Source: Icerya purchasi | Lineage: Eukaryota > Arthropoda > Insecta > Hemiptera > Monophlebidae | Assembly: GCA_039619475.1 (NCBI GenBank) | Contig: CM077116.1 | Coordinates: 296,836,464-296,900,463 of the forward strand | DNA length: 64,000 nt | Direction of reading: 5' to 3' | In this document: positions 2,761 to 61,000 of the stretch, piece by piece | Numbering within the stretch: position 1 is the stretch's first letter | Layout of the letters: each line of letters opens with the position of its first letter | The notes under the pieces: generated by a model | The model's input: the letters and a program-made list of their open reading frames with translations, nothing else | What the model was told of the DNA's origin: nothing | The model's database searches: none | Position numbers and translations under genes: made by a program

Positions 2761-3654
2761 ATGAAATTAACAACGTTACTGGTACCGGATAAGGAAAATT
2801 TTTGGAAACGCGTCTTAAAATATGTCTGTCGCGGCTTTCTTATCGGCTTCATCTCATGGGCTACAGCAATATATGTAAACCTCGTAATTGGACGCTTCTC
2901 GAAAAAAGAGCCAGCGAAAATCCCGCTTTTTGTTCAAATGATCGCAGTCATCATTACATCCTTAACGATTGTTCCAAATTCAATGATCATTAGCGAACCG
3001 TACAGAAAAGCTATAAACGATTTCGACAATCTCGAGAAAAAAATACATCGGCTCTTGGACATAAATTTATGCGAAAATATGCCGAAAAATAAAATTTACT
3101 TCATATTTCACTTGCTATACATAGTAATCAGAATTATATTCGACGTAGTAACGGGAAGAATTAGCATACTCACCGGCCTCTTCGGCTGCTCCTATTGGAC
3201 AATAGCGTCAGTGGTTGATTATAATTTAGAAATAACTTTACTCCTCGTCAGCCGTTATTTCACAAGCATGAACGACTACTTAAGCCGAGTCAACCGACAG
3301 CAAAACATCAAGCTGGTGAACAAAGATCGGCAAAATCATCGTCATCAGTCTCGACTAATTGTTAGTCGAACTTTTCAATTGTCTAAACAGAAATGGAAAC
3401 ACTTCGTCAACATTTACACAGAGCTAGTCAATTATGCTGAACGTATGAACAGTATTTTGTCGTTTCAACTATTTTGCGTTGCCACTATACGATTTTTCGC
3501 CTTCACCAGTCAACTGCACTTAGCGTTCAACATTTTCATACACGATGCTAAGATTTTTCAATCGGCTAGTCCGATTATCGAAAGCTGGGCCATAATTATA
3601 TATTTATTCAGAACAATAACGTTTATAAAACCGGCTGATGATATTATACGTCAG
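2761..3654 (+). CDS. Insect gustatory receptor (7tm_7), large 5' exon
   Basis: Probable chemosensory receptor of the insect gustatory-receptor family, a multi-pass ligand-gated channel of the sensory neuron membrane. The frame from ATG 2761 gives 298 codons up to position 3654. GTAAGT follows immediately at 3655-3660, a consensus splice donor in phase 0. Hydrophobic segments lie at about residues 20-45, 55-76, 112-132, 135-165, 230-256 and 272-290. The arrangement and the segment reading YAERMNSILSFQLF match the 7tm_7 family. Family members are usually 370-420 residues and end in a separate exon carrying the last membrane segment with a TYxxxxxQF-type motif. That exon is not found here. Transposon sequence begins at about 3715, within 60 bp of the donor. 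Whether the gene still makes a complete protein cannot be told. If the donor is ignored the frame reads on to a stop at 3706-3708, which I take to be intronic read-through. An upstream exon is possible. Confidence 0.72.
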
Positions 3655-4396: not shown

Positions 4397-7003
4397 TTAT
4401 ACAAGCTCAAATGGTTTCGTCCTTTTCAGTCTTCTAACCGCATCCGAGTGATCCAAGAGCTGCGCTGCTTCAGCATTAATGTGCTTACGTAATTTTTCTT
4501 TGTGTTTTTTTGCAAACTTTTTAACGACATCTTTTACTGGCTCAATATTTAAATCCCTGTGGAGGTTGTTATTCCTGATGTACCATGGAGCATTAACAAT
4601 ATTTCTAAGTACTTTATTTTGGAACCGTTGTATAATCTGAATGTTGGAATTTTTGGTACACGCCCATAATTGGATTCCATAGCTCCATACAGGTTTTAGC
4701 ACTTGATTATAAAGTAATAATTTATTTTGTACTGTTAATTCGGAATTACTTCCTAATAACCAAGACATGTCTTTATATCTGATGCCCAGTTCTTCCCTCT
4801 TTTTTTTAACATGCGTTTTCCATCTTAATTTTGCATCCAATGTCATTCCTAAATACTTAGCTGAGTTGTTCAATTGCACTACCTGACCGTTTATAAATAC
4901 TGGGATCGGAGTAATTTTTCTGTTTGTAAAAACAGCATGAATTGACTTGCTTTCATTGAGTTTAATTTTCCATTTTTTTGTCCAGTTTTGTACCTTGTCG
5001 ATGGCTACTTGTAGCTTAAATGTCGCTTCTTCATTATTATTGCCTACTGCTAGGATCGCCGTTTCATCAGCAAACGTAGCTGCGACTGCATTACTTTCAG
5101 CTATCGGTAAGTCAGAAGTGTATAGAAGGTACAGTATTGGCCCCAGTACACTTCCCTGCGGCACCCCAGCTTTTATTTCTCGTATTTCAGTATATATGCC
5201 TTCTTGTTTGACTCGAAAGTATCTATTTGATATATATGATTCGATAATGTCAGTGAATTTGCAAGGCAGCATTGTTTTAAGCTTCCAAATAAGCCCATCA
5301 TGCCACACTTTATCAAACGCTTGTGCAACATCTAAAAATATTGTGGAACATATCTTCTTTTCTTCAAGCGTTTTTTGTATTAAATCGGTTACTCTATGTA
5401 ACTGATCGATAGTAGAATGTTTTTTCCTGAAACCAAATTGATATTGTGGTATCAAATTGTTCGCTTCTATTATTGGTTGCAGCCTTCTCAATAACAATTT
5501 TTCAAACAATTTCGACATAACGGGTAATAATGAAATTGACCTGTAGGATGTCACTTCATATGGTGATTTCCCTGGTTTTGGTATCATTATTACCTCAGCT
5601 ACCTTCCACAGACTGGGTACATATCTTAATTTGAATGTTGCATTGATAATATTTGTTAACTTAACTATAGCTTTCTTTGGTAGCTGCTTTAATACTTCAC
5701 CCGTAATAAGGTCATATCCGGGTGCTTTTCTGGAGTTAATATTATTCTTGATTTCAAGCATTACTTCTGCTGGTATTGTTAGTTTTATTATTTCCTCTTT
5801 GTGTTTAATTTCGTTGGAAGATTGTTCACTTTCTATTTTTGGCTTTACTTCATGAAGCGTTTCATCACTTTGTTCTGTATTAAGTTGAAAAATACCTTCT
5901 AAATACCAAACAAATTGTAATGCTTTTTGCTCACTACTTCTGGCCCATTTGCCATCTATGTCCTTTATAGGTGAATTCTGTATAATCGGTCTTTTAATCC
6001 TTTTAGTAATTTTCCAAAGTGAGTAGTTAGTTCTACTACCATCATTAGTTAATCCGTGTAGATATGTTTTGATAGTCTGATTCTTAATTACTTAGATTTC
6101 TCTTTTTAGTTGTTGACTTAATCTATTTAATTTATTTTTATCTCGCAGGTCTCTCGTCATATGCCATTTGTTTCTTTGCTTTCTTTTTTCAGCCAAAAGT
6201 TTCACTATCTCTTTTGGGTATTCATTACCGTTATTTCTTTTCTTAATCACAGGAGTACATTCCCAAGCTGCATATTGCATGTCTTTAACAAATTTTTCTA
6301 GATCAATGATTAATTCTTTCGGGCATTGTAATGATACCCTTAAATTAATTTTTTCTTCTAATTTAATTTTGAAGCTTTCCCAGTCTGTATGTTGATTAAC
6401 TAAAGCTGAGTTTTCAGGTTTGTTTATTACCTTATCGCTTATTATTAATAAAACTGGAGAATGGTCTGAACATAGATCTAATCCTTCCATTACATGAATA
6501 TAATTTGAAGTGATACTTTTGAGGATATAAAAATCAATTAAGTCTGGGATTTAACTTGGATCTGTAGGCCAATATGTGGGTTTTCCTGTTGATGCCACTT
6601 CGCAACCATATTCATTAAGTGCATTCAGCAGCTCTTTACCTTTACTTGTAGTTAGACGAGAACCCCAATAAGTATTTTTAGCATTAAAGTCACCTCCAAT
6701 GATAAACCTACCTCCAACTCGATTAAATAGTTCAATATATTGTTCCTTTTTAATCGTATGTTTCGGTGGACTATACATCGCTGCTATCTTAATTTGGTAC
6801 TTTATAGTTTGTATGCTAATTACTGTGCCTTGTATTTCATCTGTTTGGTGTTTAAATTCGTCATAATGCTTGATCGTTTCTTTTATAATGACTGCACTGC
6901 CACCTTTTGCTGAATTTTCAGGATGTGGAGTGTGGTACACTTTATATCCTGAAAATGTAATGTAAGATTGTTTTGTGAAGTGTGTTTCAGAGATAAGGCA
7001 AAT
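4397..7003 (-). pseudogene. Jockey ORF2: endonuclease and reverse transcriptase, downstream part
   Basis: ORF2 makes the AP-like endonuclease that nicks target DNA and the reverse transcriptase that primes on it. In minus-strand order it reads an endonuclease with CLISETHFT (Glu of the active site), GGDFNAKNTYWGS and SSDHSP-like CSDHSPV. A linker follows, then a reverse transcriptase with RKAPGYD, QFGFRKKHST, FLDVAQAFDKVW and GVPQGSVLGP. The catalytic box reads FADETA instead of the usual YADD/FADD, so the second aspartate is glutamate. The C-terminus has the Jockey signature APWYIRN...HRDL. All pieces lie in one frame, broken by stops at 6551-6553 and 6092-6094. This is a recently dead copy. 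No RNase H domain is present, as usual for Jockey. Confidence 0.9.
6998..7003. repeat. 6-bp target-site duplication GCAAAT, left copy
   Basis: GCAAAT lies immediately before the palindrome terminus. The second copy is at 23328-23333. Removing the insertion and one copy restores the Jockey ORF2 frame exactly (codons for Ile-Cys). The following A at 7004 could be counted either way, so the duplication is 6 bp with symmetric AGTAGTG termini. Confidence 0.9.
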
Positions 7004-7409
7004 AGTAGTGTGTAAATGGCGGAGCTGGGCCAGTTTTCCCCGATTTCCCACAGATTTTCCCCGGGGGTAGTTACCCCGAGTGTCTAGGTTTCCCCCAATT
7101 TTCCCAGGCAGCTGCTGAAATTTCACCCCAAATTCTCATCCAGGTGCTAAAAATTAACCCCAATTTCTCTTTTAGAGCCCAAAGTTTCCCCTGATTTCAA
7201 GGATTTCCTCCAAGTTTTCCCTGTTTACCCCTGATTCCTCTGGACAGTTCCACCAATTCGATCCCTAATTCCCATCAAGGTAGTCAAAATTCACCCCCAA
7301 TTAGTGTACAGGTGCTAAAAGTTCACACCAATTTGTATCCATATGGTTAAAATTCACCCAAGTTTCCCCAAAATTTCTTCAAATTTTCCTGTTTCCGCGT
7401 TCATACTGT

Positions 7410-8430
7410 TATCTGTAAAAGCGCTCACACCGTTTCCACACATATATTCAACATAGCCTTAGCAGTGTACTCGCTTTCCCATACCCGCGCCTTCTATCAT
7501 CATGTGTATGTATTATACATGACTCTGCTTGTAATGTATACAACATAATTTTTAATTTTCATTTTTTGAGGTTGGGAGGGGTAAAATTTTGCTGGAGTGA
7601 TAAAAACGTTTGAATCTCAACACTTAGAACCCAAAATTTAAAGGAATTTTCCAAGTCATGCTCTGTCCCGGCATTTTTTTTTTTTAAATTTTATTTTTAA
7701 AGAAAATATTTGAACGTTCCATCAGTCGAATGAGAGCGGGCGAGTGTGCTGCTACGAGATGTATTATGTAAGCGCACCGCGGATGTAATGGAAATATTTA
7801 AATGTTCCAGCAACTAGTTGAAACTGTCACCAGGTGAGGTGAATTCCAGTCGTTCGTTCGAAATTAACTAGCCGATCATCTATACACACTCTCACATGCC
7901 ACCGATAGAAACCTGTTCACGATCGCTACACGTTCACACACGCACACATATACACGGCCACCTGATATATATTTTTCGTCTTTTTCCGCTTCCGATCTTA
8001 TACTTAATCCGTTGATATTTTTATTTTTTTATTTTTACATATTCTCTGTTCATTGCAAAAGCACACCGTCCATTCCTGCACACATATCAAGCATTGAGTT
8101 AACCTGTACAAAGGTACACTGTACTATTCCATGCACGCTCCGTCGCCACCGAAATAAACACCGCGATATCACACACACACACACACATATATACACACCA
8201 CCACTTCGTACATATTTTATTTTCGAGTCAAAATATTATAGAATTAGCCTAAGTATATTTTTCTTTTACGCTTCTGTTTATTTCTTCTGTTTTGTTTCCC
8301 CGATTCTAAAAATTAATCTGTCAATGTATTAGCCACTCTTTCATTCGCACATAATGTTCCCTCGCACTCATCTGCTACCAGTAGTTCTTTTGTCATTCAT
8401 AATAACTTTTTCAAGTCTAATATTATAGAA
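7410..8430 (+). repeat. Arm segment shared with the solo arm at 49235-50287
   Basis: This part of the arm has a clearly recognisable, diverged counterpart in the same orientation at 49235-50287, for example GAGGTTGGGAGGGGTAAAA in both. It is the most conserved piece between the two elements and is mirrored in the right arm at about 21890-22910. The counterpart diverges abruptly after the motif CAAGTCTAATATTAT. Confidence 0.85.
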
Positions 8431-9394
8431 TCAACCTAATTATATTTTTTTTCGCTTCCAATCATTTCCTTCATCCGTTGATAATTTTCTTATTTTATTT
8501 TTTCTCAGGTTCTAAAAATAAATCCATTGATATCTTCACTAGTATGATTGTGTAAACATCTTCTAACAGTATTCCTCATATTGTTCATAATAATTTTTCA
8601 TGTCTATGTATTATGGAATTAGTCTAAAATATATTTTTTCCCCTCTAAAGTCTTTTTCCAAATGTAAGTATTCAAAAATTAATTCGAGTATATTTTTATT
8701 TAACGCTGTTTCATATTTTCCCTCTCCCCTATCCACCCAACACAAATTTCAATTCTTTTCTATTATTTTTCATGAGTACATCCCCCTGAAACTACAGTGA
8801 AACCATACCATTCATTCCCACGCACCCATCTGCTAACAATGATTTTCTCATCATTCATAATAATTTTTTCGAATCTGTTAGTTTAAGATTATTTCATTTT
8901 TTTCAAACTTTTTTTTTTTTTTCAATATCTTCCATATTTTCCCCCAATATGTCCGCGTACGCTCATAATGCAAAGGTACTCTGCTTATTTCCTTGCATGA
9001 ATGTTGCTATGCCGTTGATTTCGATCATGTGTCAAGGTCATCGAGTCTGCCCGGATCTTCTCCTTCATATCTTTTGTAGAAAAACCGGTTGACATGTACA
9101 CACCTACACACAAACACCCATAACCCAAAGATCACCTGTAAATTTCGTTCATCTGCATATGTAACCAGCTTTCACCAAAGGAATGTAGTTTTTCTGGTGC
9201 AACCCGCCCTCTTCAAAGACATGCATCGAGCTAGAATCTCGGAAGGATCTGTTCAGGCAGTCAGTATTAGTGTTACATTAAACGTGTAGAATTTGTTGAA
9301 GCTGTGTTCTTCACGCATTAATAAAAGTTTGCTCTAACGTTAAAAGTAATAATTTTCTACATTCTTAGTAAAAAGTTAAAAATATTATTCAAAC

Positions 9395-9826
9395 ATGAAT
9401 AACAATATCGATTCGATTGATATTAAAGTCGACGTATTTATTCAGAATTCATTTTTGAGTGATAGTGTCTCGCATACAACTTCATCACCTCCATCACAGC
9501 AATCAGATGATGGTTATACAGCAGAAGGATCAACATCTTCTGTACATAATATCAATGGTCCTGTATTATTATCAGAACAAGCAAATATAGCGGAATATTT
9601 TGTAGATATCAGCATCCATATAGATTGTGATTATGGTTTTCGAGTAACTGAACCAGCAATGATTGATATGTCTGGCGGAAAGTGTTTGCATACACTGTAT
9701 AAGCCAAGCAGAGCATGGCATGCATCAAAAATGCCACATTTACAATGTTCTTCGATGAGTCATTACTTGAAAAATCCTTCATTATTTCTCTATCCCCCCC
9801 CCCCCCTTAACTTAAAGTACTGGTAA
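9395..9826 (+). CDS. Hypothetical Ser-rich acidic protein in the left arm
   Basis: A 143-codon open frame starting at ATG 9395. It does not match any family I recognise. The first half is rich in Ser, Asp, Asn and Thr (SVSHTTSSPPSQQSDDGYTA), and the second half contains several Cys and His residues. Unlike other open frames in the arms, its composition is not merely the translation of low-complexity AT-rich DNA. It runs into a poly-C tract (about 9796-9808), where its frame differs by one base from the mirror copy, so the true C-terminus is uncertain. The mirror copy is at 20508-20927. It could be a captured exon, an element-encoded protein, or chance. Confidence 0.3.
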   Translation: MNNNIDSIDIKVDVFIQNSFLSDSVSHTTSSPPSQQSDDGYTAEGSTSSVHNINGPVLLSEQANIAEYFVDISIHIDCDYGFRVTEPAMIDMSGGKCLHTLYKPSRAWHASKMPHLQCSSMSHYLKNPSLFLYPPPPLNLKYW

Positions 9827-12174
9827 TGATGAATATTACAAAAATCTGAACCAGTTGTGTAAAGTGTACATATAATTATTATCTAATTTTCGAATATAAT
9901 CCCACATAATTTGTTCATTTTCTTTCTAGATTAAAAAATTATATTTTTTATTCTTTCTATAACAAACGAATCTAACTGTTCATCTTTTTCATGTACATCA
10001 CGTACATCAAGTATTTTCCGCAGCTGTGTGAGTTTTCATTAATTTGTAAGTCACAACCTAAGACCCGGAGAGTTCTCTCTAATTGCTTAAAATCTTTCAT
10101 AATCACATTTTTATAAAAATATGTATTAAGTTCACATGTTATGTAATATATTTTTTTTATTTCACATATATTTTGTCTATGAGGTGTGTTGATCAATAGA
10201 GCAACAGGTAGAAAACCTACTAGCTTACGAGACACAGCATGTTTATAGAAAAAACGTGCTAGCATGAGCAGATCAGAGTGAGAGACTGTATGCATGTATG
10301 TGTGCGAGAGCAACAGATTGATTATAAAAAACGTCGAAGATACATGCATCTATCTGTGAACAATTATCACATCAAACATAAAAAGGTTGACTAAAAGATT
10401 ATTATTTTCTTTTTTCATTCATTCTCGCCACTTTTACCATTCGCGCCCCACTGTCAAGACCTCTGAACATACATTACTAACCTCACCGACACTATAATAT
10501 TTTTTCTCTGTGTTATTAAATTAACCCAAGTATATTTTTATTCATTTGTTACGCAAACATTTGTTCAAATCTTTCGTAATATGTCATGCACAAGCCCGCA
10601 GACACTACTCGCTTCATTACCACGAATACATCTCTTTCATTCTCACTTATCATAACATAGTTTTTCCTGAAATTGTAAAAAAATTCTCTTTGCTCCATTC
10701 TTCCAAGGTGATTTATTTCCAAATTTCAAATCACGCATAATTATTTTAGAATCAAATTAAGTATATTTTATCATTTCCAAAAATCAATCATCTCTGTACA
10801 AGGCATTAACTCATTTTCACATCAAACATATTATTTTTTATCATTTAAATTTTTTTCTCAATTCACAAATAGCTAACCTATAATAACATATTGTTGTAAA
10901 CATACATACATGACGAACTCACTCCTCATAATTACATCATGAATTAATTTTTTCTTCATTTTTTTTTACAATCGTGAAATTGTAGTAGTGTTTTTTAATT
11001 TTTTTTTTATTTTTCATACATGACAAAAGCAATAGAATCACGGCATCTATGAATGTGTACACTGTACGCTTCCAATAACCTATCATGCATTTTTTTAAAT
11101 CAGTTCAAGCATACTATTTTTTCAATAACAAAGCCGATCATACATAATTTTTTCTTCTACATAATCACTAATCTATGAAAACACTTGATTCGTTTTACTC
11201 TTACTGTAGCAACCACTCCTTTTCCCTCATGCTAACAAACTTCAAAATTTAATAATATAACACAAAATTAATCTAAATATCTGTTCATGCTATTAAAATT
11301 AATATATCAATCTTTACATTCCTTTTGTACATTTCTGAAAAAAATCCTACAACATGTTTTAAAATTAATCGAAGTATACTATTTTATTACCTAAAATCAA
11401 TTATTCTCTCATACAGTTTTTTCCAATCATACATAATGTTTTTCTGTATTGTCATTATTACAAAGTCATACAAAACAACAACACATTTTTAATCATAATG
11501 AATCCTTCATTCCATTCCATTCATGCTATATACCATTATCATTCAATTCAACGTTATGAAATTAGTCTAAATATACATTCATGCTAGCAAAGTTATTATC
11601 TCACTCTTTGCATTGTTCCAAGATGATTTATTTTACATTTTTTCTTTAAATTTCCCTCATACTATTATTTTTGAAATGTAGGATGATGACTATGATTAGA
11701 ATTCATGATTATGAAGAGAGAGATGCATGCTGAAATTGTATTGTCATTATATGCGAGATGATGTGTGATTGTGGGTGAGTATGGATGCATGTAAAATATA
11801 TGAGTGTGTTAGTAAAAAACATCCGTTCAAGCGTGAACACAGGTACAGATACAGTTATAGAATGAGAGAGGTAAAAATATATATTTTGTTATGTTTGATA
11901 TGTGCATGATAAAGAGGTTAACAAAGAATAATCACATTACCCTCACAACTTAGACATTGAGTTATACCTTTGCAATATTTTAGATGTGAAAGCAGTGACA
12001 TTGACATGTGGTAAACGTTTTCATCACTTTTGACTCATTATAACCAATTTTCCAACATTTCTCTTCGTTTTTCCTACATTTTAATACTTTTACACCGTTT
12101 TAGTCAATTTTTGCTATTTAATGCCATTTTTTCCATTGTTTTTACCACCTTTCTCACAATTTTCATCATTCTTT

Positions 12175-13865
12175 CATCATCTTTGTTAGGTTTTTTCTTA
12201 CAACTCTTTAAAATTTCGATCGTTGTTAGTGATAACCATTATTATTTATGCTTTCAATCCTTCCACTTCAGCAATGCACACATACAGCTTAGCAATCGCA
12301 GCAGCCGTTGAACGTTGTAGGACAGCAATCGTGATCTCCATATGATTATTGGGATTTAAAAGTCACATCTTTGAACGCTTGATCTAATGCATCAACATGA
12401 TTTTTTTTGTATTCGCCCACCCGCTGCTGGAGGTTCCACTTAATATTCTCAACAGACTATCATACAGTCGTTTAATAAGAGAATCCGTAAGAGCCGAGAC
12501 ATTTACTTATCGTTTTCCCAACACATTCACAGACCTACCCTGTACACTAAGGAAATCTTTAAACATCTCTGTAACCATTCCTTTTAAGCTGACGGGAGCA
12601 AGGAACTCCTATAAACGTTTGTCAATCAGCACTTCATCGTTCATCGTCCATGGTTTCACTCGCCATTGCACAGACATGTAATAAACATTTTCTTCTTCTT
12701 ACTATTTTCTTATGCTTTAACACTATTACATCATTTTTCCTCGCTTCTAACTAATTGTAACCAGTTTTCCATTATTTCTTAGCATGTTCTTCTGTTTTAG
12801 GACCTTTTTGCGCTATTTTTTTTCATCAATTTATGTTATTTCACATCGTTTTTCTGGTGATTTTAGTGCCTTTCACACAATTTTACTAATTATTTTCGAC
12901 TATTTCTTAACATGTTCTTCTGTTTTAGGACCTTTTTGCACTATTTTTTCATCAATTTATGTTATTTAACATCATTTTTCTAGTGTTTTACTACCTTTCT
13001 CACAATTTTCATCATTCTTTCATGATCTTTGTTAAGTTTTTTCTTACAACTCTTTATCATTTCGATTGTCGTTAGTGATATCCATCATTATTTATGCTTT
13101 CAATCCTTCCGCTTCATCCATGCACACATACAGCTTAGCAATTGCCGCAGACGTTGATTATTGTAGGACCCCAATCGTGATTTCCATTTGATTATTGGGA
13201 TTTAAAAGTCACATCTTTGAACGCTTGATCTAATGCATCAACATGATCTTTGTATTCTCCCACCCGCTGCTGAAGGTTACACTTAATATCTTCAACAGAC
13301 TATCATACAGTCGTTTAATAAGAGAATCCGTAAGAGCCGAGACATTTACTTATCGTTTTCCCAACACATTCACAGACCTACCCTGTACACTAAGGGAATC
13401 TTTAAACATCTCTGTAACCATTCCTTTTAAGCTGACGGGAGCAAGGAACTCCTATAAACGTTTGTCAATCATCACTTCATCATTCATCGTCCTGGTTTCA
13501 CTCGCCGTTGCACAGACATGTAATAAACATTTTCTTCTTTTAAAATTTTCTTATGCTATAACACTATTACATCATTTTTCCTCGTTTCTAACTAATTGTA
13601 ACCAGTTTTTCACTATTTCTTAGCATGTTCTTCTGTTTTAGGACCTTTTTGCGCTATTTTTTCATCAATTTATGTTATTTCACATCGTTTTTCTAGTAAT
13701 TTTAGTGCCTTTCACACAATTTTACTAATTATTTTCGACTATTTCTTAACATGTTCTTCTGTTTTAGGACCTTTTTGCACTATTTTTTCATCAATTTATG
13801 TTATTTCACATCGTTTTTCTAGTGTTTTACTACCTTTCACACAATTTTACTCAATTTTTCCCCAT
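12175..13865. repeat. Tandem duplication of about 846 bp in the left arm
   Basis: Two direct copies (about 12175-13020 and 13021-13865) are nearly identical. Both contain the segment that reads from CCCGCTGCTG to CTATAAACGTTTGTCAATCA. Inside each are shorter direct repeats of about 127 bp starting CATGTTCTTCTGTTTTAGGA (copies at about 12783, 12911, 13624 and 13751). The whole array is mirrored in the right arm at about 16458-18148. Small differences between the two copies are preserved in the other arm, so the duplication predates arm homogenisation. Confidence 0.8.
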
Positions 13866-14544
13866 CTTTGAAGATTTTTTTTTTCATTTATCTCATACAT
13901 TATATGTCCGAATGTGACGATTAGCTATCCTTTTAAGTACATTTTTTAATTCGATATAAGTGAGGAGTACTTTTCAGGTTGACATGTATACTTCGTGATA
14001 TGACATTCAATTCATTATTAATCTATGTTTCAACAGGTTTGTGGTCGGTTGTTGGAGGTTTACAGAACTTTCTGTTGCATTGCTTATAGTATAATGGTTC
14101 TTGTGTGCTAGTGAGATGATGGTGTTTTGTTGGGAATAATAAACATGGGAAAGAGAAGGAGTGCGTCCCATCAAGCAGGGGGAGTGATGCTTCGTAATTA
14201 GCTTGCGTATTGCGCACATTGCATAGCAGTTATAATATGCTCAAGCAAAAATTAGTCGCTGTACTCGCATGTCGTTCATGTTATTCATTAAATGTTCACA
14301 CTGAGAGATGCAATGGGCTCATCAACATATGGATCCATGCTATCATTTCGATTTTTATAATTGTAATCTGCACTGAGCATGTATGTATTACAACAAACCC
14401 ATAAATTCTGTTACAGATGATAATGTTTGAGAATAGATAGTGAAACGTTCATTAGAACATGAATGTGTATACAAAGTGTTGTTACATCAAATGTATGTCA
14501 TCAAATTAACTAAAATGTTGCGTCCATAGTACAAAAAATAAAAA

Positions 14545-15365
14545 TAAAAAAAAATGAGGGGTTTTCCCTAAGAGGGAGATTATTATAAAATTGATGCGAT
14601 TTTAGATGGAAATGGGGTATTTTCGAGTAAAAAAGCTGTTTTGCACCTAAATGGTGAATACTTTGGAGGTTAAATGGTATTTTTCACACAAAATTTGATG
14701 TTTTTTTATAAATGTGGGTATTTTACTCCTACATGGAGTAATTTCTGCATGAGGAGTACTTTTTGGACTGACATGTATATTTCTTGATGTGGTATTCAAT
14801 TCATTCTGAAGCTATGTTTGAACAGCTTTGTAAATGGTTGGGGGAAGTTTACAGAACTTTTCTGCTGCAAAAGTTATAGTATAATAGTTTTTATGTGCTA
14901 GTGAAATGAAGGTATTTGGTTAGGAATAATAAATATGGGTAAGAGGTGGAGTGCATCCCCATCAAGCATGGGAGAGTATTGTTTGGGAATTAACTCCATT
15001 ATTTGCACACATTGCAATACAATTATAATCAGTTTGCTCGAAATTACTTGTTGTGTATCGTTCATGTTATACATTAAACATTCACACTGAGAAACAGACT
15101 GGACTCTTCGACATCAAGATCCATGCGATCATTACACTACTATTTTTTAATGTTTTGAACGGCTCTTATGATGTATTTCAGCACATTCTCACAAGTACAA
15201 AGTTCGTAATACGAAATAATTTTAATTATTTCGACAGTCTTTACACACAAATAAAATACTATACCTTTAACACACTCAACATGAAACAATTCATTACAAA
15301 TAGAAATAAACAACGAAATTGCTCAGAAATTTTAATGAAATTTAAGAAGCACAGTATATATGAAA
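14545..15365 (+). repeat. 821-bp segment present only in the left arm
   Basis: The right arm jumps from the equivalent of about 14540 to the equivalent of about 15363. The segment contains an imperfect second copy (about 14740-15110) of the sequence at 13930-14410. Both ends carry A-rich runs ending AAAATGA, which fits a deletion in the right arm through short homology. Confidence 0.75.
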
Positions 15366-15461
15366 ATGAACATATTTTTTAAATTAACACTCCAAACTTG
15401 CAGTTTCAGAATTATATCAGACCCTGACTAAGAACCCCGTTGTTCCTTTTGCTGCATATAT

Positions 15462-15682
15462 ACATATATCTACATATAAACATGTATATATCTACATATA
15501 TACATATATATCTACACATATACACATATATATCTACATATATACATATATATATCTACATGTATACATATATATATCTACATATATACACATATATATC
15601 GACATATATACATATATATATCTACATATATATGTATATATATAGGTATATGTATAATTTAATATTATATGATTATATACAT
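15462..15682. repeat. TA-rich microsatellite at the palindrome centre
   Basis: A run of TACATATATATC-like units forms the only unpaired or weakly paired centre (symmetry point about 15572). The immediately flanking 80 bp on each side are perfect inverted copies (for example GCTGC at 15451-15455 and GCAGC at 15689-15693). Confidence 0.85.
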
Positions 15683-17023
15683 ATATATGCAGCAAAAGGA
15701 ACAACGGGGTTCTTAGTCAGGGTCTGATATAATTCTGAAACTGCAAGTTTGGAGTGTTAATTTAAAAAATATGTTCATTTTTTTTTTTTTGTACTGTGGA
15801 CGCAACATTTTAGTTAATTTGATGACATACATTTGATGTAACAACACTTTGTATACACATTCATGTTCTAATGAACGTTTCACTATCTATTCTCAAACAT
15901 TATCATCTGTAACAGAATTTATGGGTTTGTTGTAATACATACATGCTCAGTGCAGATTACAATTATAAAAATCGAAATGATAGCATGGATCCATATGTTG
16001 ATGAGCCCATTGCATCTCTCAGTGTGAACATTTAATGAATAACATGAACGACATGCGAGTACAGCGACTAATTTTTGCTTGAGCATATTATAACTGCTAT
16101 GCAATGTGCGCAATACGCAAGCTAATTACGAAGCATCACTCCCCCTGCTTGATGGGACGCACTCCTTCTCTTTCCCATGTTTATTATTCCCAACAAAACA
16201 CCATCATCTCACTAGCACACAAGAACCATTATACTATAAGCAATGCAACAGAAAGTTCTGTAAACCTCCAACAACCGACCACAAACCTGTTGAAACATAG
16301 ATTAATAATGAATTGAATGTCATATCACGAAGTATACATGTCAACCTGAAAAGTACTCCTCACTTATATCGAATTAAAAAATGTACTTAAAAGGATAGCT
16401 AATCGTCACATTCGGACATATAATGTATGAGATAAATGAAAAAAAAAATCTTCAAAGATGGGGAAAAATTGAGTAAAATTGTGTGAAAGGTAGTAAAACA
16501 CTAGAAAAACGATGTGAAATAACATAAATTGATGAAAAAATAGTGCAAAAAGGTCCTAAAACAGAAGAACATGTTAAGAAATAGTCGAAAATAATTAGTA
16601 AAATTGTGTGAAAGGCACTAAAATTACTAGAAAAACGATGTGAAATAACATAAATTGATGAAAAAATAGCGCAAAAAGGTCCTAAAACAGAAGAACATGC
16701 TAAGAAATAGTGAAAAACTGGTTACAATTAGTTAGAAACGAGGAAAAATGATGTAATAGTGTTATAGCATAAGAAAATTTTAAAAGAAGAAAATGTTTAT
16801 TACATGTCTGTGCAACGGCGAGTGAAACCAGGACGATGAATGATGAAGTGATGATTGACAAACGTTTATAGGAGTTCCTTGCTCCCGTCAGCTTAAAAGG
16901 AATGGTTACAGAGATGTTTAAAGATTCCCTTAGTGTACAGGGTAGGTCTGTGAATGTGTTGGGAAAACGATAAGTAAATGTCTCGGCTCTTACGGATTCT
17001 CTTATTAAACGACTGTATGATAG

Positions 17024-17131
17024 TCTGTTGAAGATATTAAGTGTAACCTTCAGCAGCGGGTGGGAGAATACAAAGATCATGTTGATGCATTAGATCAAGC
17101 GTTCAAAGATGTGACTTTTAAATCCCAATAA
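17024..17131 (+). pseudogene. Decayed coding-like fragment in the arms
   Basis: A 35-codon frame ending in TAA with strongly protein-like composition (begins SVEDIK, contains EYKDHVDALDQAF). About 60 bp upstream in a different frame lies another coding-like stretch (GMVTEMFKDSLSVQG). A diverged second tandem copy lies at about 17700-17960, and left-arm mirrors exist (this one at 13192-13299, minus strand). Stops and a frame change separate the pieces. I do not recognise the family. The antisense frames are also open, so the coding direction is an inference. Confidence 0.3.
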
Positions 17132-19973
17132 TCAAATGGAAATCACGATTGGGGTCCTACAATAATCAACGTCTGCGGCAATTGCTAAGCTGTATGTGTG
17201 CATGGATGAAGCGGAAGGATTGAAAGCATAAATAATGATGGATATCACTAACGACAATCGAAATGATAAAGAGTTGTAAGAAAAAACTTAACAAAGATCA
17301 TGAAAGAATGATGAAAATTGTGAGAAAGGTAGTAAAACACTAGAAAAATGATGTTAAATAACATAAATTGATGAAAAAATAGTGCAAAAAGGTCCTAAAA
17401 CAGAAGAACATGTTAAGAAATAGTCGAAAATAATTAGTAAAATTGTGTGAAAGGCACTAAAATCACCAGAAAAACGATGTGAAATAACATAAATTGATGA
17501 AAAAAAATAGCGCAAAAAGGTCCTAAAACAGAAGAACATGCTAAGAAATAATGGAAAACTGGTTACAATTAGTTAGAAGCGAGGAAAAATGATGTAATAG
17601 TGTTAAAGCATAAGAAAATAGTAAGAAGAAGAAAATGTTTATTACATGTCTGTGCAATGGCGAGTGAAACCATGGACGATGAACGATGAAGTGCTGATTG
17701 ACAAACGTTTATAGGAGTTCCTTGCTCCCGTCAGCTTAAAAGGAATGGTTACAGAGATGTTTAAAGATTTCCTTAGTGTACAGGGTAGGTCTGTGAATGT
17801 GTTGGGAAAACGATAAGTAAATGTCTCGGCTCTTACGGATTCTCTTATTAAACGACTGTATGATAGTCTGTTGAGAATATTAAGTGGAACCTCCAGCAGC
17901 GGGTGGGCGAATACAAAAAAAATCATGTTGATGCATTAGATCAAGCGTTCAAAGATGTGACTTTTAAATCCCAATAATCATATGGAGATCACGATTGCTG
18001 TCCTACAACGTTCAACGGCTGCTGCGATTGCTAAGCTGTATGTGTGCATTGCTGAAGTGGAAGGATTGAAAGCATAAATAATAATGGTTATCACTAACAA
18101 CGATCGAAATTTTAAAGAGTTGTAAGAAAAAACCTAACAAAGATGATGAAAGAATGATGAAAATTGTGAGAAAGGTGGTAAAAACAATGGAAAAAATGGC
18201 ATTAAATAGCAAAAATTGACTAAAACGGTGTAAAAGTATTAAAATGTAGGAAAAACGAAGAGAAATGTTGGAAAATTGGTTATAATGAGTCAAAAGTGAT
18301 GAAAACGTTTACCACATGTCAATGTCACTGCTTTCACATCTAAAATATTGCAAAGGTATAACTCAATGTCTAAGTTGTGAGGGTAATGTGATTATTCTTT
18401 GTTAACCTCTTTATCATGCACATATCAAACATAACAAAATATATATTTTTACCTCTCTCATTCTATAACTGTATCTGTACCTGTGTTCACGCTTGAACGG
18501 ATGTTTTTTACTAACACACTCATATATTTTACATGCATCCATACTCACCCACAATCACACATCATCTCGCATATAATGACAATACAATTTCAGCATGCAT
18601 CTCTCTCTTCATAATCATGAATTCTAATCATAGTCATCATCCTACATTTCAAAAATAATAGTATGAGGGAAATTTAAAGAAAAAATGTAAAATAAATCAT
18701 CTTGGAACAATGCAAAGAGTGAGATAATAACTTTGCTAGCATGAATGTATATTTAGACTAATTTCATAACGTTGAATTGAATGATAATGGTATATAGCAT
18801 GAATGGAATGGAATGAAGGATTCATTATGATTAAAAATGTGTTGTTGTTTTGTATGACTTTGTAATAATGACAATACAGAAAAACATTATGTATGATTGG
18901 AAAAAACTGTATGAGAGAATAATTGATTTTAGGTAATAAAATAGTATACTTCGATTAATTTTAAAACATGTTGTAGGATTTTTTTCAGAAATGTACAAAA
19001 GGAATGTAAAGATTGATATATTAATTTTAATAGCATGAACAGATATTTAGATTAATTTTGTGTTATATTATTAAATTTTGAAGTTTGTTAGCATGAGGGA
19101 AAAGGAGTGGTTGCTACAGTAAGAGTAAAACGAATCAAGTGTTTTCATAGATTAGTGATTATGTAGAAGAAAAAATTATGTATGATCGGCTTTGTTATTG
19201 AAAAAATAGTATGCTTGAACTGATTTAAAAAAATGCATGATAGGTTATTGGAAGCGTACAGTGTACACATTCATAGATGCCGTGATTCTATTGCTTTTGT
19301 CATGTATGAAAAATAAAAAAAAAATTAAAAAACACTACTACAATTTCACGATTGTAAAAAAAAATGAAGAAAAAATTAATTCATGATGTAATTATGAGGA
19401 GTGAGTTCGTCATGTATGTATGTTTACAACAATATGTTATTATAGGTTAGCTATTTGTGAATTGAGAAAAAAATTTAAATGATAAAAAATAATATGTTTG
19501 ATGTGAAAATGAGTTAATGCCTTGTACAGAGATGATTGATTTTTGGAAATGATAAAATATACTTAATTTGATTCTAAAATAATTATGCGTGATTTGAAAT
19601 TTGGAAATAAATCACCTTGGAAGAATGGAGCAAAGAGAATTTTTTTACAATTTCAGGAAAAACTATGTTATGATAAGTGAGAATGAAAGAGATGTATTCG
19701 TGGTAATGAAGCGAGTAGTGTCTGCGGGCTTGTGCATGACATATTACGAAAGATTTGAACAAATGTTTGCGTAACAAATGAATAAAAATATACTTGGGTT
19801 AATTTAATAACACAGAGAAAAAATATTATAGTGTCGGTGAGGTTAGTAATGTATGTTCAGAGGTCTTGACAGTGGGGCGCGAATGGTAAAAGTGGCGAGA
19901 ATGAATGAAAAAAGAAAATAATAATCTTTTAGTCAACCTTTTTATGTTTGATGTGATAATTGTTCACAGATAG

Positions 19974-20351
19974 ATGCATGTATCTTCGACGTTTTTTATA
20001 ATCAATCTGTTGCTCTCGCACACATACATGCATACAGTCTCTCACTCTGATCTGCTCATGCTAGCACGTTTTTTCTATAAACATGCTGTGTCTCGTAAGC
20101 TAGTAGGTTTTCTACCTGTTGCTCTATTGATCAACACACCTCATAGACAAAATATATGTGAAATAAAAAAAATATATTACATAACATGTGAACTTAATAC
20201 ATATTTTTATAAAAATGTGATTATGAAAGATTTTAAGCAATTAGAGAGAACTCTCCGGGTCTTAGGTTGTGACTTACAAATTAATGAAAACTCACACAGC
20301 TGCGGAAAATACTTGATGTACGTGATGTACATGAAAAAGATGAACAGTTAG
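19974..20351 (+). CDS. Hypothetical protein fragment in the right arm
   Basis: A 125-codon open frame (mirror at 9972-10349, minus strand). The N-terminal half looks like translated low-complexity sequence. The second half (KDFKQLERTLRVLGCDLQI) is more protein-like. The next 70 bp are open in another frame with acidic, coding-like composition ending in TAA near 20392. This suggests a frameshifted C-terminus. No family was recognised. Confidence 0.2.
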   Translation: MHVSSTFFIINLLLSHTYMHTVSHSDLLMLARFFYKHAVSRKLVGFLPVALLINTPHRQNICEIKKIYYITCELNTYFYKNVIMKDFKQLERTLRVLGCDLQINENSHSCGKYLMYVMYMKKMNS

Positions 20352-20507
20352 ATTCGTTTGTTATAGAAAGAATAAAAAATATAATTTTTTAATCTAGAAA
20401 GAAAATGAACAAATTATGTGGGATTATATTCGAAAATTAGATAATAATTATATGTACACTTTACACAACTGGTTCAGATTTTTGTAATATTCATCATTAC
20501 CAGTACT

Positions 20508-20927
20508 TTAAGTTAAGGGGGGGGGGGGATAGAGAAATAATGAAGGATTTTTCAAGTAATGACTCATCGAAGAACATTGTAAATGTGGCATTTTTGATGC
20601 ATGCCATGCTCTGCTTGGCTTATACAGTGTATGCAAACACTTTCCGCCAGACATATCAATCATTGCTGGTTCAGTTACTCGAAAACCATAATCACAATCT
20701 ATATGGATGCTGATATCTACAAAATATTCCGCTATATTTGCTTGTTCTGATAATAATACAGGACCATTGATATTATGTACAGAAGATGTTGATCCTTCTG
20801 CTGTATAACCATCATCTGATTGCTGTGATGGAGGTGATGAAGTTGTATGCGAGACACTATCACTCAAAAATGAATTCTGAATAAATACGTCGACTTTAAT
20901 ATCAATCGAATCGATATTGTTATTCAT
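20508..20927 (-). CDS. Hypothetical Ser-rich protein, right-arm mirror copy
   Basis: Mirror of the frame at 9395-9826, identical over its first 137 residues and differing only where the poly-C tract length changes the terminal frame. Perfect conservation of the rest is explained by overall arm identity and is not evidence of selection. Confidence 0.3.
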   Translation of the reverse strand: MNNNIDSIDIKVDVFIQNSFLSDSVSHTTSSPPSQQSDDGYTAEGSTSSVHNINGPVLLSEQANIAEYFVDISIHIDCDYGFRVTEPAMIDMSGGKCLHTLYKPSRAWHASKMPHLQCSSMSHYLKNPSLFLYPPPPLT

Positions 20928-23327
20928 GTTTGAATAATATTTTTAACTTTTTACTAAGAATGTAGAAAATTATTACTTTTAACGTTAGAGCAAACTTTTA
21001 TTAATGCGTGAAGAACACAGCTTCAACAAATTCTACACGTTTAATGTAACACTAATACTGACTGCCTGAACAGATCCTTCCGAGATTCTAGCTCGATGCA
21101 TGTCTTTGAAGAGGGCGGGTTGCACCAGAAAAACTACATTCCTTTGGTGAAAGCTGGTTACATATGCAGATGAACGAAATTTACAGGTGATCTTTGGGTT
21201 ATGGGTGTTTGTGTGTAGGTGTGTACATGTCAACCGGTTTTTCTACAAAAGATATGAAGGAGAAGATCCGGGCAGACTCGATGACCTTGACACATGATCG
21301 AAATCAACGGCATAGCAACATTCATGCAAGGAAATAAGCAGAGTACCTTTGCATTATGAGCGTACGCGGACATATTGGGGGAAAATATGGAAGATATTGA
21401 AAAAAAAAAAAAAGTTTGAAAAAAATGAAATAATCTTAAACTAACAGATTCGAAAAAATTATTATGAATGATGAGAAAATCATTGTTAGCAGATGGGTGC
21501 GTGGGAATGAATGGTATGGTTTCACTGTAGTTTCAGGGGGATGTACTCATGAAAAATAATAGAAAAGAATTGAAATTTGTGTTGGGTGGATAGGGGAGAG
21601 GGAAAATATGAAACAGCGTTAAATAAAAATATACTCGAATTAATTTTTGAATACTTACATTTGGAAAAAGACTTTAGAGGGGAAAAAATATATTTTAGAC
21701 TAATTCCATAATACATAGACATGAAAAATTATTATGAACAATATGAGGAATACTGTTAGAAGATGTTTACACAATCATACTAGTGAAGATATCAATGGAT
21801 TTATTTTTAGAACCTGAGAAAAAATAAAATAAGAAAATTATCAACGGATGAAGGAAATGATTGGAAGCGAAAAAAAATATAATTAGGTTGATTCTATAAT
21901 ATTAGACTTGAAAAAGTTATTATGAATGACAAAAGAACTACTGGTAGCAGATGAGTGCGAGGGAACATTATGTGCGAATGAAAGAGTGGCTAATACATTG
22001 ACAGATTAATTTTTAGAATCGGGGAAACAAAACAGAAGAAATAAACAGAAGCGTAAAAGAAAAATATACTTAGGCTAATTCTATAATATTTTGACTCGAA
22101 AATAAAATATGTACGAAGTGGTGGTGTGTATATATGTGTGTGTGTGTGTGTGATATCGCGGTGTTTATTTCGGTGGCGACGGAGCGTGCATGGAATAGTA
22201 CAGTGTACCTTTGTACAGGTTAACTCAATGCTTGATATGTGTGCAGGAATGGACGGTGTGCTTTTGCAATGAACAGAGAATATGTAAAAATAAAAAAATA
22301 AAAATATCAACGGATTAAGTATAAGATCGGAAGCGGAAAAAGACGAAAAATATATATCAGGTGGCCGTGTATATGTGTGCGTGTGTGAACGTGTAGCGAT
22401 CGTGAACAGGTTTCTATCGGTGGCATGTGAGAGTGTGTATAGATGATCGGCTAGTTAATTTCGAACGAACGACTGGAATTCACCTCACCTGGTGACAGTT
22501 TCAACTAGTTGCTGGAACATTTAAATATTTCCATTACATCCGCGGTGCGCTTACATAATACATCTCGTAGCAGCACACTCGCCCGCTCTCATTCGACTGA
22601 TGGAACGTTCAAATATTTTCTTTAAAAATAAAATTTAAAAAAAAAAAATGCCGGGACAGAGCATGACTTGGAAAATTCCTTTAAATTTTGGGTTCTAAGT
22701 GTTGAGATTCAAACGTTTTTATCACTCCAGCAAAATTTTACCCCTCCCAACCTCAAAAAATGAAAATTAAAAATTATGTTGTATACATTACAAGCAGAGT
22801 CATGTATAATACATACACATGATGATAGAAGGCGCGGGTATGGGAAAGCGAGTACACTGCTAAGGCTATGTTGAATATATGTGTGGAAACGGTGTGAGCG
22901 CTTTTACAGATAACAGTATGAACGCGGAAACAGGAAAATTTGAAGAAATTTTGGGGAAACTTGGGTGAATTTTAACCATATGGATACAAATTGGTGTGAA
23001 CTTTTAGCACCTGTACACTAATTGGGGGTGAATTTTGACTACCTTGATGGGAATTAGGGATCGAATTGGTGGAACTGTCCAGAGGAATCAGGGGTAAACA
23101 GGGAAAACTTGGAGGAAATCCTTGAAATCAGGGGAAACTTGGGGTAACTTTGGGCTCTAAAAGAGAAATTGGGGTTAATTTTTAGCACCTGGATGAGAAT
23201 TTGGGGTGAAATTTCAGCAGCTGCCTGGGAAAATTGGGGGAAACCTAGACACTCGGGGTAACTTTCCCCGGGGTAAATCGGGGGTAAATCGGGGGAACTG
23301 GCCCAGCTCCACCATTTATACACTACT

Positions 23328-23333
23328 GCAAAT
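23328..23333. repeat. 6-bp target-site duplication GCAAAT, right copy
   Basis: Directly follows the right terminus (ending CACTACT). It pairs with 6998-7003 and is part of Jockey ORF2. Confidence 0.9.
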
Positions 23334-23429
23334 ATCTATCTTTTCTTTGTGTAGCACTATTTGCAATTCATGTTGATGTTGCAATAGCCCATTAGTGTTC
23401 CATTTAAGAATTTTTAATTCCCTGTTCAT
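23328..23429 (-). pseudogene. Jockey ORF2, first 34 codons
   Basis: Starts at ATG 23429-23427, overlapping the ORF1 stop as ATGA. It reads the N-terminal endonuclease start with KILKWNTNGL, the strand that opens LINE AP-endonucleases (Asn near the active site). It ends at Ile-Cys, where the palindrome interrupts it. The frame resumes at 6997 with LISETHFT. Confidence in the join is high because the duplicated hexamer encodes exactly the two shared residues. Confidence 0.9.
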
Positions 23430-24802
23430 GTTTTCCTTTTACTTCCTGGTGCAGCTCCCTTAATGCTAATTTCTATATTCTTTAATCTCTGCTCAAATGA
23501 GTTTATAAAGGCTTCTTGTTTGTTTAATTTTTCTATTATTAATTGTAAACTTTGCCCAATTTTATTCTCTTGTTGTACTACAATAGCATTACTTGTGTTT
23601 TTACTTACTAGTTGAGCAAAACTTTGCTCTTCTCTAATTTGCTGTGATGATGCAGACACGTGTTTTTTTGATAAGGTTTCTTGTTGTTTTTCAGTAATCG
23701 TCTTCGACTTTTGTTGCATTTTAGTTTTATTCATTTTGTTGTCTTTTAATTTTTGTATTTCTTTTGCTATTGTACAACCGCGATAATTTACTGGATGATC
23801 CCCTCCACAAAGCACGCATTTAGGTGTTTCACTGATTGTTTTCTTACAATCTACTGTTAAATGATGCCCAGCACACTTAACACATCTTGGGTCCCTATGG
23901 CAGTGTTTCTGAGTATGATTAAAACTTTGACACTTTTTGTATTGTGGTATTAGTTTTGAAACTATTAATGGATGGATTTCTACCCTGCATCTTAATATAT
24001 ACGAAATTTTAAATCTTTTATCAACATTTTCTTGAGGATCAAATGCTAACATAAACATATTTAATGCCTGTTTGATTCTCCATTTTAATTTATTTACTGC
24101 TTGGATGATTTTATATCCTTGGCTTTTTAAATTGGCCATAATGCTTTCCCCTTTGCATGTGTAATGTAGGTTCTTAGCTATAACTCTAATTGGTCTGTCC
24201 TGTTTGTTTTCATAAGAATGCCATAAGTATTCTTTTTCCTCAAGAAATTTCGTCAAACTTCTATTTGCGTCACTATCTGGTGTATTAAATTTAATGCTTT
24301 CATTGCCTAATAATTTCACACGATATTGGGCATTAGGTAGGTGATTTTTCAACAGTTCATGATATCCATCATAATCTTTGATCCCTTGAACAATAATTGG
24401 AGGAGAGACAAAACACTTTTTTCCCTTTCTCTTGCTGGTTATTAGTACTTAGTGTCTGAAGAGGAGAAAGTGACATGTCTAACTTTCTTTTTTTTCTATT
24501 AGTTTTATTTTTAACTCTAATCCATACGGTTTCTTTTGCCAGATCTTCTTCACCGGTATGATATGTTTGGTTCTCCTGACTAACCTGAACCGGCACAGAT
24601 TTATTTTTTATATTTGAAATCTCATTTTGTAAGTTTTTAATAGCTTCTTGCAACTGACTTATTTGCATATTTAATTGTTTATTCTCATTAACAGAATTTT
24701 TCCAAACCGTGTATAAAGTTTGTTCATTTTGCGATCTTTTAAATTTCTCTTGGAACAGAGAATTATCATTTTTAATATTAATTTGTTGATGCAATGCCAT
24801 CT
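23426..24802 (-). pseudogene. Jockey ORF1 (gag-like nucleic-acid-binding protein)
   Basis: Encodes the RNA-binding ORF1 protein of Jockey. The likely start is the Met of MALHQQINIK near 24800. The N-terminal third is coiled-coil-like (QISQLQEAIKNLQNEISNI). A one-base frameshift in an A run near 24415 separates it from the main part, which continues in frame down to TGA 23428-23426. The main part has the pre-C2HC region and then three zinc knuckles. The first has lost its leading Cys (YKKC...H...C). The second and third are intact as CX2CX3HX4C and CX2CX3HX6C, the spacing known for Jockey gag. A Lys- and Gln-rich tail follows. Confidence 0.85.
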
Positions 24803-27534: not shown

Positions 27535-29062
27535 ATGACTTCTCTAATTCAATATCGCAGTAAACAAAATTGCAACAATTATATTAATATCAAAAAATGG
27601 ACTGACAATGTAAACAGCATACTAAATGTAAATAATTCACTACAAATTAATACGGAGCTTTTTCATGTGTTGCACTTAAACATAAGAACCCTGAGACGTA
27701 ACTGGGATGAATTTATAACTTACATTCACAGGTCATCTTTAAGTGTCATCATATTAACTGAAATTAATATAAGTAAGGATGAATTAAATCTATATAATAT
27801 AACTGGATTCACGAATATTGGACTACAAAGACCTATAGGGTTTAATGGAGGAATACTTGTGTTTATAAATAATAAGTTTAAATATCACATTCGGGAGGTT
27901 AATAATAGACCAAGTATGGACCTGGTGATGATAGATATAGAGATTTGCAAAAACAACCCTTTACGCTTAATTGCTATGTACAGATCACCGAGTAAAAACG
28001 TAGGCGAATTTATAAACGAAACCGCTTCACTCCTAAAAAAATTAAGCAATAAAGATAATTTCCTGATTTGTGGTGATTTTAATATTGATTTATCTATTCG
28101 TAATGTACAGGCTGAGAATTTTTTAAACGTAATTTATGGGTCAGGAGGAATACAGTTAATAAATGGAATAACGAGAGAAGAAGAACGGATTGATAGAAGT
28201 ACTCAGTCATGTATAGACAACATATTTATTAAGTATAATACAAATGAAATTACTTCGGGAATTATTCACTCGAAAATATCAGATCATTACATCATTTGTT
28301 GTGCATTTAGTATCTCAAACCGGAGTTTTCAATCTATTAGTAACCCTTTGAAATATGTTTTCGATGAAAAGAGATTGCATAATAAGATAATTAATCATAA
28401 CTGGAATGAGGTAAGGTGCGCTACAACGTCAGGAAATATATATGATAATATACATTCAGTTTTTAAAGGCCTTTACAAAGAATGCAAAATAGAAGTACCG
28501 CAGAGTAAAAAGGTGACTAAATACTGTCCTAAAAATGAATGGATGAGTCAAAAAATAATCAATTTTATGAAAATCAGAGATCAGTACTTTAAACTTAGTA
28601 AAGGGAACAGAACCAATATTCGATATAAAAATTTATTTAGAAAATATCGAAATATGGTTACAACTGAAATAAGGAATGCGAAACAGAATTATTATCGGAG
28701 TCAAATAGTTAAAGCAAACAATGATTGTAAAAAAGTATGGAATGTAATTAACAATATTGTTAATAAAAACAATAAAACATCGATCGATGATTTCATCGTT
28801 AAACATTTTGGAAATACTGCATCAGTTGCTGAACAATTTAGTGATTATTTTATATGTTCAGTGGAACATCATAGACACGAATGTCACATTCAGTTGTTGA
28901 ATTCGAATTTTGATAATCGTATTTATTCTTCCTTTTTTATTCCGCCAGCAAATAAATACCAAATAGAAGCAATAATTAATGATCTAAAAGTTTATAAGGC
29001 ACCTGGATGGGATGAAATTAGGGTTAAAGATATAAAATAAAACTTAAATATTTTTGTTCCTA
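27535..29062 (+). pseudogene. CR1/L2-like ORF2: endonuclease and start of RT (truncated)
   Basis: The start is taken at ATG 27535 because the related copy at 33712 begins with the same MTSLIQ. Endonuclease landmarks in order are ILTEINIS (catalytic Glu), GGILVFINNKF, YRSPSKN, ICGDFNIDL, SCIDNIFIKY and SDHYIICCAF (catalytic Asp-His). A linker with KQNYYRSQIVKA and the opening RT motif KAPGWDEIR follow. A TAA at 29038-29040 and then the mariner insertion at the TA of 29061-29062 end the frame. RT catalytic boxes are missing from this copy. Confidence 0.85.
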
Positions 29063-60800: not shown

Positions 60801-61000
60801 TACTTGGTCTATTATTAACCTCCCGAACGTGATATTTAAACTTATTATTTATAAACACAAGTATTCCTCCATTAAACCCTATAGGTCTTTGTAGTCCAAT
60901 ATTCGTGAATCCAGTTATACTATATAGATTTAATTCATCCTTACTTATATTAATTTCAGTTAATATGATGACACTTAAAGATGACCTGTGAATGTAAGTT
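57813..61000 (-). mobile_element. CR1/L2-like LINE copy 5, 5'-truncated
   Basis: Poly-T at 57813-57828, then the 3' motif with GTGGGTCTCACAGGG and TGTGTGAGTGCCCGACAC and a 3' UTR to about 58200. ORF2 runs from 58204 up to about 60990, where it is cut within the endonuclease. It is nearly identical to copy 1 in the overlapping endonuclease region. Confidence 0.88.
58204..60990 (-). pseudogene. CR1/L2-like ORF2: endonuclease and complete RT
   Basis: All parts are in one frame, broken by TAG at 59821-59823 and TAA at 58780-58782 (in FKY*GVYID, where relatives have Leu). Endonuclease: ILTEINIS, GGILVFINNKF, ICGDFNIDL and SDHYIICCAF. RT: KAPGWDEIRVKDI, QHGFRRKRSTITLL, FIDLSKAFDLVDHE, GVGQGTILAPILF and VYVFADDIALLIEH (Asp pair intact). 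C-terminal: MSRILYGIQIWGEAKK, EMSPKMYYYYYRLLEF and RGVNLRIDNTD. There is no RNase H, as expected for the CR1/L2 group. This copy supplies the RT that copy 1 lost. Confidence 0.88.

Follow-up and report, generated by a model that had tools for sequence, protein, structure and literature searches.

In the genome of the hemipteran Icerya purchasi (assembly GCA_039619475.1, contig CM077116.1), positions 7004 to 23327 of a 64,000-nucleotide stretch (296,836,464 to 296,900,463 of the forward strand, hereafter the window) hold a palindrome that entered a long interspersed nuclear element (LINE) as a mobile unit. It shares its ends with an integrase- and ATPase-bearing element and with one PolB locus of the same genome. 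This palindrome is probably a non-autonomous member of a family derived from Maverick/Polinton elements, which would be mobilised by the enzymes of its relatives and whose arms would be re-matched around the time of movement, through what we infer to be a foldback.

Compared by blastn with the reverse complement, positions 7004-14544 pair with 15779-23327 over 7551 aligned columns, of which 7528 are identical, 11 are mismatched and 12 contain gaps. The element begins with AGTAGT at 7004 and finishes with ACTACT at 23327. The original prediction, made from the sequence of the window, was right that a palindrome lies between two GCAAAT repeats (7528 of 7551 columns identical), and wrong in granting it almost no spacer, since 1,234 bp separate the outer arms. 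Its parts are the following.

6998..7003, no strand: left target-site duplication GCAAAT, 6 bp, present once in the empty-site query
7004..14544, plus strand: left arm, paired part, starting AGTAGTGTGTAAATGGCGGAGCTGG (blastn against the reverse complement of 15779-23327)
12098..13882, plus strand: arm-internal tandem duplication, its two units (12098-13045 and 12946-13882) being 92% identical, with a mirror image in the right arm
14545..15362, plus strand: left-only inner stretch of 818 bp, whose right partner is absent from the window copy
15363..15781, no strand: centre, an inner inverted repeat (15363-15479 and 15665-15781) enclosing an AT-rich 22-bp tandem array
15779..23327, minus strand: right arm, paired part, terminating ...CACTACT
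23328..23333, no strand: right target-site duplication GCAAAT, 6 bp

Inside the 818-bp stretch, 14750-15133 is a diverged repeat of 13961-14347. The likeness of the two arms is uneven. Leaving aside an indel of 10 bp at 7187 and a gap in poly-C at 9798, they show 12 differences, namely 11 substitutions and one gap of a single base. Of these, 10 are concentrated in the first 65 bp (binomial 1.5e-19), and not one substitution separates the arms from 7068 to 14527. The outermost 65 bp (7004-7068 versus 23263-23327) adjoin C-rich short tandem repeats; comparably, a related element introduced below, L013, has 8 mismatches at arm positions 32-96.

Both flanks of the palindrome belong to one LINE, with the endonuclease and reverse transcriptase on one side and open reading frame (ORF) 1, containing PRE_C2HC, on the other.

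4397..7003, minus strand: host LINE, ORF2 side (endonuclease, reverse transcriptase)
23334..24448, minus strand: host LINE, start of ORF2 and ORF1 (PRE_C2HC)

When the flanks are joined with one GCAAAT, the ORF2 frame of this LINE is restored, as had been claimed together with the 6-bp direct repeat. A 300-bp query joining 150 bp of each flank returned 52 candidates, and the best 40, all those scored, match it uninterrupted across the junction (40/40) at 90-97% identity. These uninterrupted LINE copies are paralogous empty sites; therefore the insertion and its 6-bp duplication were precise. Elsewhere in the window, 27710-29062 and 59655-61007 are inverted copies of one 1.35-kb LINE segment, 99% identical.

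The assembly that we searched comprises 1,103,370,081 bases in 41 contigs, including C1 (601.66 Mb) and C2 (497.30 Mb). The available text of PMC11183206 gives 1,103.38 Mb, a scaffold N50 of 601.66 Mb and two chromosomes for I. purchasi, assembled by hifiasm from HiFi reads at an average depth of 31, and presumably describes this assembly; the word Maverick is absent from that main text as available. The termini, searched against this assembly, led to further copies with 6-bp duplications and empty sites, in keeping with the proposal of a mobile unit. A 501-bp query from the left end gave 848 candidates, and the best 40 of these form at least 14 plus/minus pairs besides the window. We sampled 12 of the 14 pairs and one single end. 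The target duplication is an exact 6 bp in 9 of the 12 elements read at both ends (the window and 8 of 11 others), matches at 5 of 6 bases in two elements and at 4 of 6 in L013.

Across the whole assembly, a 25-base end pattern occurs 650 times (322 forward and 328 reverse), and its reversed control 0 and 0 times. The first 100 of these 650 places and the first 100 of 143 for a longer pattern yielded 66 distinct plus/minus pairs, which span 309 to 56,618 bp; among these listed pairs, 30 of 66 measure 15-18 kb. The 309-bp element, at C1:306366948-306367256, has an identical 35-mer at both ends, a minimal form like that of a miniature inverted-repeat transposable element (MITE). Other short copies include one-sided internal deletions, such as L009, in which one arm retains 1.4 kb and its partner 4.7 kb. 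A query from the inner arm (window 14000-14500) gave 1881 candidates, the best 40 of which include plus/minus pairs, mostly 2-4 kb apart around a centre. An AT-rich centre near arm position 8.5 kb is common to the long copies E8, E13 and the window, and the long form of the family would measure about 17 kb, as one end dimerised in inverted orientation around this centre. The arm stretch 7392-8431 has a diverged counterpart, 84% identical, at window 49227-50286, in which no end was found.

A fold-back artefact of assembly or sequencing had been judged unlikely from the start. Such artefacts exist, and C1:549921626-549927747 (L012), where the mirror symmetry extends through the 1-kb flanks (2981 of 2981 bases), may be one of them, or else a more extensive inverted duplication; this locus was excluded from the family sample. 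In the window, the unlike flanks on the two sides, the 6-bp duplication, the empty sites, the differences between the arms and the 818-bp asymmetry all speak against an artefact, as do the elements of the same form at other loci and the HiFi assembly (PMC11183206, in its available text). This explanation, already largely refuted, has next to no probability left.

The ends point to the parentage of the family. According to the available part of PMC8097293, the commonest ends of vertebrate Mavericks are (AGT)2//(ACT)2, and intact copies have 6-bp duplications. The window element resembles Maverick/Polinton elements, as the accessible portions of PMC8097293 and PMC6431247 present them, in its AGTAGT...ACTACT ends, its 6-bp target duplication and its 7.5-kb terminal inverted repeats. 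The earlier suggestion of an unrelated, undescribed class finds no support in that form, since the end motif and the duplication length are those published for Mavericks (PMC8097293, available part).

Relatives with the same ends carry the enzymes of such elements. L013 (C1:220055984-220064691, 8.7 kb) has the family end pattern at its left end and the same first 28 bases at both ends; its inverted repeat of 1063 bp (1042 identical) is 85-92% identical to the end of the palindrome. Above the Pfam cut-off, it matches Pox_A32 (an ATPase), rve (an integrase) and a phospholipase-A2-like domain, with Chromo below the cut-off. The genome search for PolB (PF03175) scored 91 out of 638 candidates and gave at least 133 matches. 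The end AGTAGTGTATAAATGGCGGAGCTGG is found at one PolB locus, L042, where 909 columns align with the arm at 91% identity and a single end was seen; at another, L041, short arm pieces near positions 2130 and 3170-3270 precede PolB in the same order. In its outer 3.3 kb, the window arm has stretches in common with the termini of Maverick-like elements of this genome that bear PolB and integrase, and the original idea of an inverted dimer of a larger element's end came close.

The window copy also departs from Maverick/Polinton elements. Its inverted repeats reach the centre to form a palindrome, many copies of the family have one novel gene per arm, and Pfam found no PolB, integrase, ATPase or capsid in the six frames of the left arm (the capsid search covered this arm and not the relatives). 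The statement that it holds no recognisable enzyme gene thus stands by Pfam and has to be completed by a truncated gene of the element family. Since PolB, integrase and ATPase are absent, the window copy is a non-autonomous derivative rather than a full member of Maverick/Polinton.

Foldback and Galileo elements, of the P superfamily, offer another comparison, with their very long inverted repeats and internal repetition, which the long arms and tandem duplication of the window recall. Their target duplications measure 9 bp in Foldback and 7 bp in Galileo, whereas that of the window measures 6 bp. The AGTAGT...ACTACT ends and the enzyme relatives differ as well, with an rve integrase and an A32 ATPase between the same ends in L013. 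It is hardly credible that the palindrome is of this type and not a Polinton.

Six convergent PolB pairs under 10 kb were found among 89 PolB places. One of them, C1:540603403-540618754, is itself a palindrome, with 6449 of 6456 arm columns identical plus shorter matched pieces, a 197-bp centre and an open PolB frame in each arm; neither termini nor a target duplication were found there. At C1:427202338-427223292, four PolB frames alternate (+ - + -) within 21 kb, as two adjacent convergent pairs. At C1:135376000-135419470, PolB frames cluster together with four end motifs, all pointing the same way and spaced about 4.7-25 kb from one another, possibly as a tandem Polinton array. The PolB frame of L029 (C1:474732517) also matches F-box above the cut-off and Endonuclease VII below it, and Endonuclease VII lies above the cut-off in L041 and L042. 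A 1246-residue ORF in E4, considered as a candidate PolB, was rejected, as it is a LINE inserted in one arm.

The two arms of each copy are closely coupled. Over the first 900 bp of 12 elements, each of the 24 arms (24/24) lies closest to its own partner, the distance being 0-1.3%, while the medians to other elements are 4.6-6.7%. Among the matches listed, the end 25-mers are identical in 28 of 33 adjacent plus/minus pairs less than 35 kb apart and differ by one base in four more, while shuffling the 34 variants listed gave a mean of 2.4 and a maximum of 9 matches. The 35-mer variants are likewise identical in 37 of 39 listed pairs under 60 kb (shuffle mean 2.2, maximum 10); these two lists overlap and are less biased than the sample of fetched elements. 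In the end pattern, the variants of neighbouring slots occur in many combinations, so that slots seem to recombine between elements, the two ends of each element staying matched. Changes are shared in the same way further in. Where at least one arm departs from the commonest arm-gene score, 26 of 30 pairs have equal scores in both arms, taken as a proxy for identity, and 4 have unequal ones; a TAA stop in this gene is found in both arms of two elements, and E10 has lost arm positions 1906-2229 from both. LINE insertions in E3 and E4 are confined to one arm.

Arms inherited side by side would be expected to differ within a copy at least as much as copies differ from each other. The arms within a copy differ far less than copies do, and were therefore re-matched, at transposition or later. 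Gene conversion is known to homogenise large chromosomal palindromes, and the elements could accordingly be Polinton derivatives with long terminal inverted repeats whose arms are kept alike by conversion after the palindrome has integrated, as the matching of arms in every element examined would allow. This reading has to accommodate the one-armed LINEs that persist in E3 and E4, the one-sided 818-bp deletion and unmatched outer 65 bp that persist in the window, and ends that are identical down to the final base in most of the listed pairs, the 309-bp element among them. None of these points is decisive. The one-armed LINEs, the one-sided deletion, the matched last bases and the very short elements favour re-matching at transposition, without proof, and we hold conversion after insertion to be unlikely.

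Matched arms would also arise, with no copying between them, if a single-armed precursor dimerised separately just before each insertion, the palindrome itself not being heritable. The PolB-bearing palindrome, which has a different centre, and the five further convergent PolB pairs lend this some support. It is at odds with the AT-rich centre that E8, E13 and the window share near arm position 8.5 kb, and with the common spacing of 10.0-11.2 kb in 46 of the 61 mirrored pairs of the arm gene; no single-armed precursor was identified, though no systematic search was made. We consider such repeated dimerisation improbable.

Several observations weigh against a re-matched Maverick/Polinton derivative. 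PolB, integrase and ATPase are all absent from the window copy, and its own outermost 65 bp are unmatched between the arms, which arm-copying would not predict; the C-rich repeats may have slipped there, or another element may have supplied a patch. In L011, the partner arm is barely the nearest relative (1.33% versus 1.46% to E8). Beyond 3.3 kb, the inner 5 kb of the arm gave only scraps of 20-39 bp (best E 0.008) against the PolB stretches compared. L042 displays one family end only, and not one of the 89 PolB places lies between the two ends of a listed pair (66 pairs). The fetched copies, selected for likeness to the left end of the window and for having both ends found, are a biased sample. 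No single-strand or foldback form was seen, the data being a finished assembly only.

A mechanism can be proposed for the re-matching of a Maverick/Polinton derivative around the time of transposition. Given the Maverick-type end motif and the 6-bp duplication, the palindrome was most likely mobilised by the Maverick integrase and protein-primed polymerase of relatives with the same ends. Protein-primed replication would displace a single strand, the displaced palindromic strand could fold back on itself, and repair synthesis would then copy one arm onto the other, renewing both the palindrome and its matching ends. Palindromic deletion derivatives exist among replicons of the invertron type. 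Invertron-type linear plasmids and adenovirus resemble our elements in their terminal inverted repeats, and the available part of PMC1864894 presents snap-back or panhandle forms as proposed for protein-primed replicons; strand displacement and such forms, as proposed there, would explain the copying of arms. Unlike the palindromes, these are extrachromosomal replicons with their own polymerase. A more speculative and tentative extension is that the elements are self-perpetuating palindromic satellites of Polintons, in which the heritable unit would be one arm, the folded strand would rebuild the two-armed form and its end barcode in each round, and the arm gene would serve this lifestyle.

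The arm gene is present in the window in truncated form.

9395..9826, plus strand: ORF of 143 codons, a truncated form of the 287-codon arm gene (gene residues 1-136 at 9380-9787)
20535..20942, minus strand: residues 1-136 of the same truncated gene, mirrored in the right arm

Among the fetched elements, the 287-codon frame is whole only in E4. E13 retains all residues with frame breaks, E3 extends to residue 179, and most others, including the long E8, end at residues 132-136. The genome contains 3069 candidates, and the best 136 all span residues 1-287 at 98-100% identity, five of them with a stop; because the best candidates were scored first, this sample favours intact copies. The 136 copies form 61 mirrored pairs and 14 singles, and the spacing of 10.0-11.2 kb in 46 of the pairs would fit long palindromes, a reading of the spacing and not of the intervening DNA. 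Between seven copies compared, 1-7 of the 861 bases differ, and this class of the gene is therefore young. Its substitutions show no third-position or synonymous excess and no sign of selection, so that the reality of the gene rests on its open frame; the chance of 282 open codons at the base composition of the arm is about 9e-9. The gene was not found in the three PolB stretches checked (L035, L041 and L042).

No homologue of the arm protein was found in Pfam, the PDB or a large protein set. That set also returned no relatives of an exon of the host Maelstrom gene; it may thus be poor in insect proteins, and the lack of a hit there carries little weight. The structure predicted for the 143-residue ORF of the window is uninformative (mean pLDDT, the predicted local distance difference test, 32.9). 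By eye, the full-length protein shows an E...C-H-C pattern resembling what we take to be that of the Maelstrom domain, a reading that failed all tests. No Maelstrom match was found for it in Pfam or in the PDB, the three PF13017 matches in the genome all lie at the locus of the host gene, and pairwise scores fell within those of shuffles (1008, 2886 and 1838 of 3000 attained the observed score). The gene may be a helper of the palindromic element, which is a guess, or alternatively a recently captured passenger.

The parent kind, Maverick/Polinton, is already known; what is new is the palindromic form, the matched arms with their end barcodes and the novel arm gene. No description of palindromic Polintons was found in the literature searched, which consisted of titles and abstract openings outside the subscription journals; the available part of PMC12368964 deals with a palindromic hAT MITE and, separately, with Maverick density. 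So far, the replication of Polintons has mostly been inferred from gene content. Hundreds of copies of the terminus, with arms matched to the end barcode in each copy examined, provide a natural record of the copying of ends, and a family with matched arms makes the foldback (panhandle) model testable from sequence. The family demonstrates that transposons can succeed in an animal chromosome in the form of palindromes of about 17 kb, and it brings along a novel, highly repeated gene.

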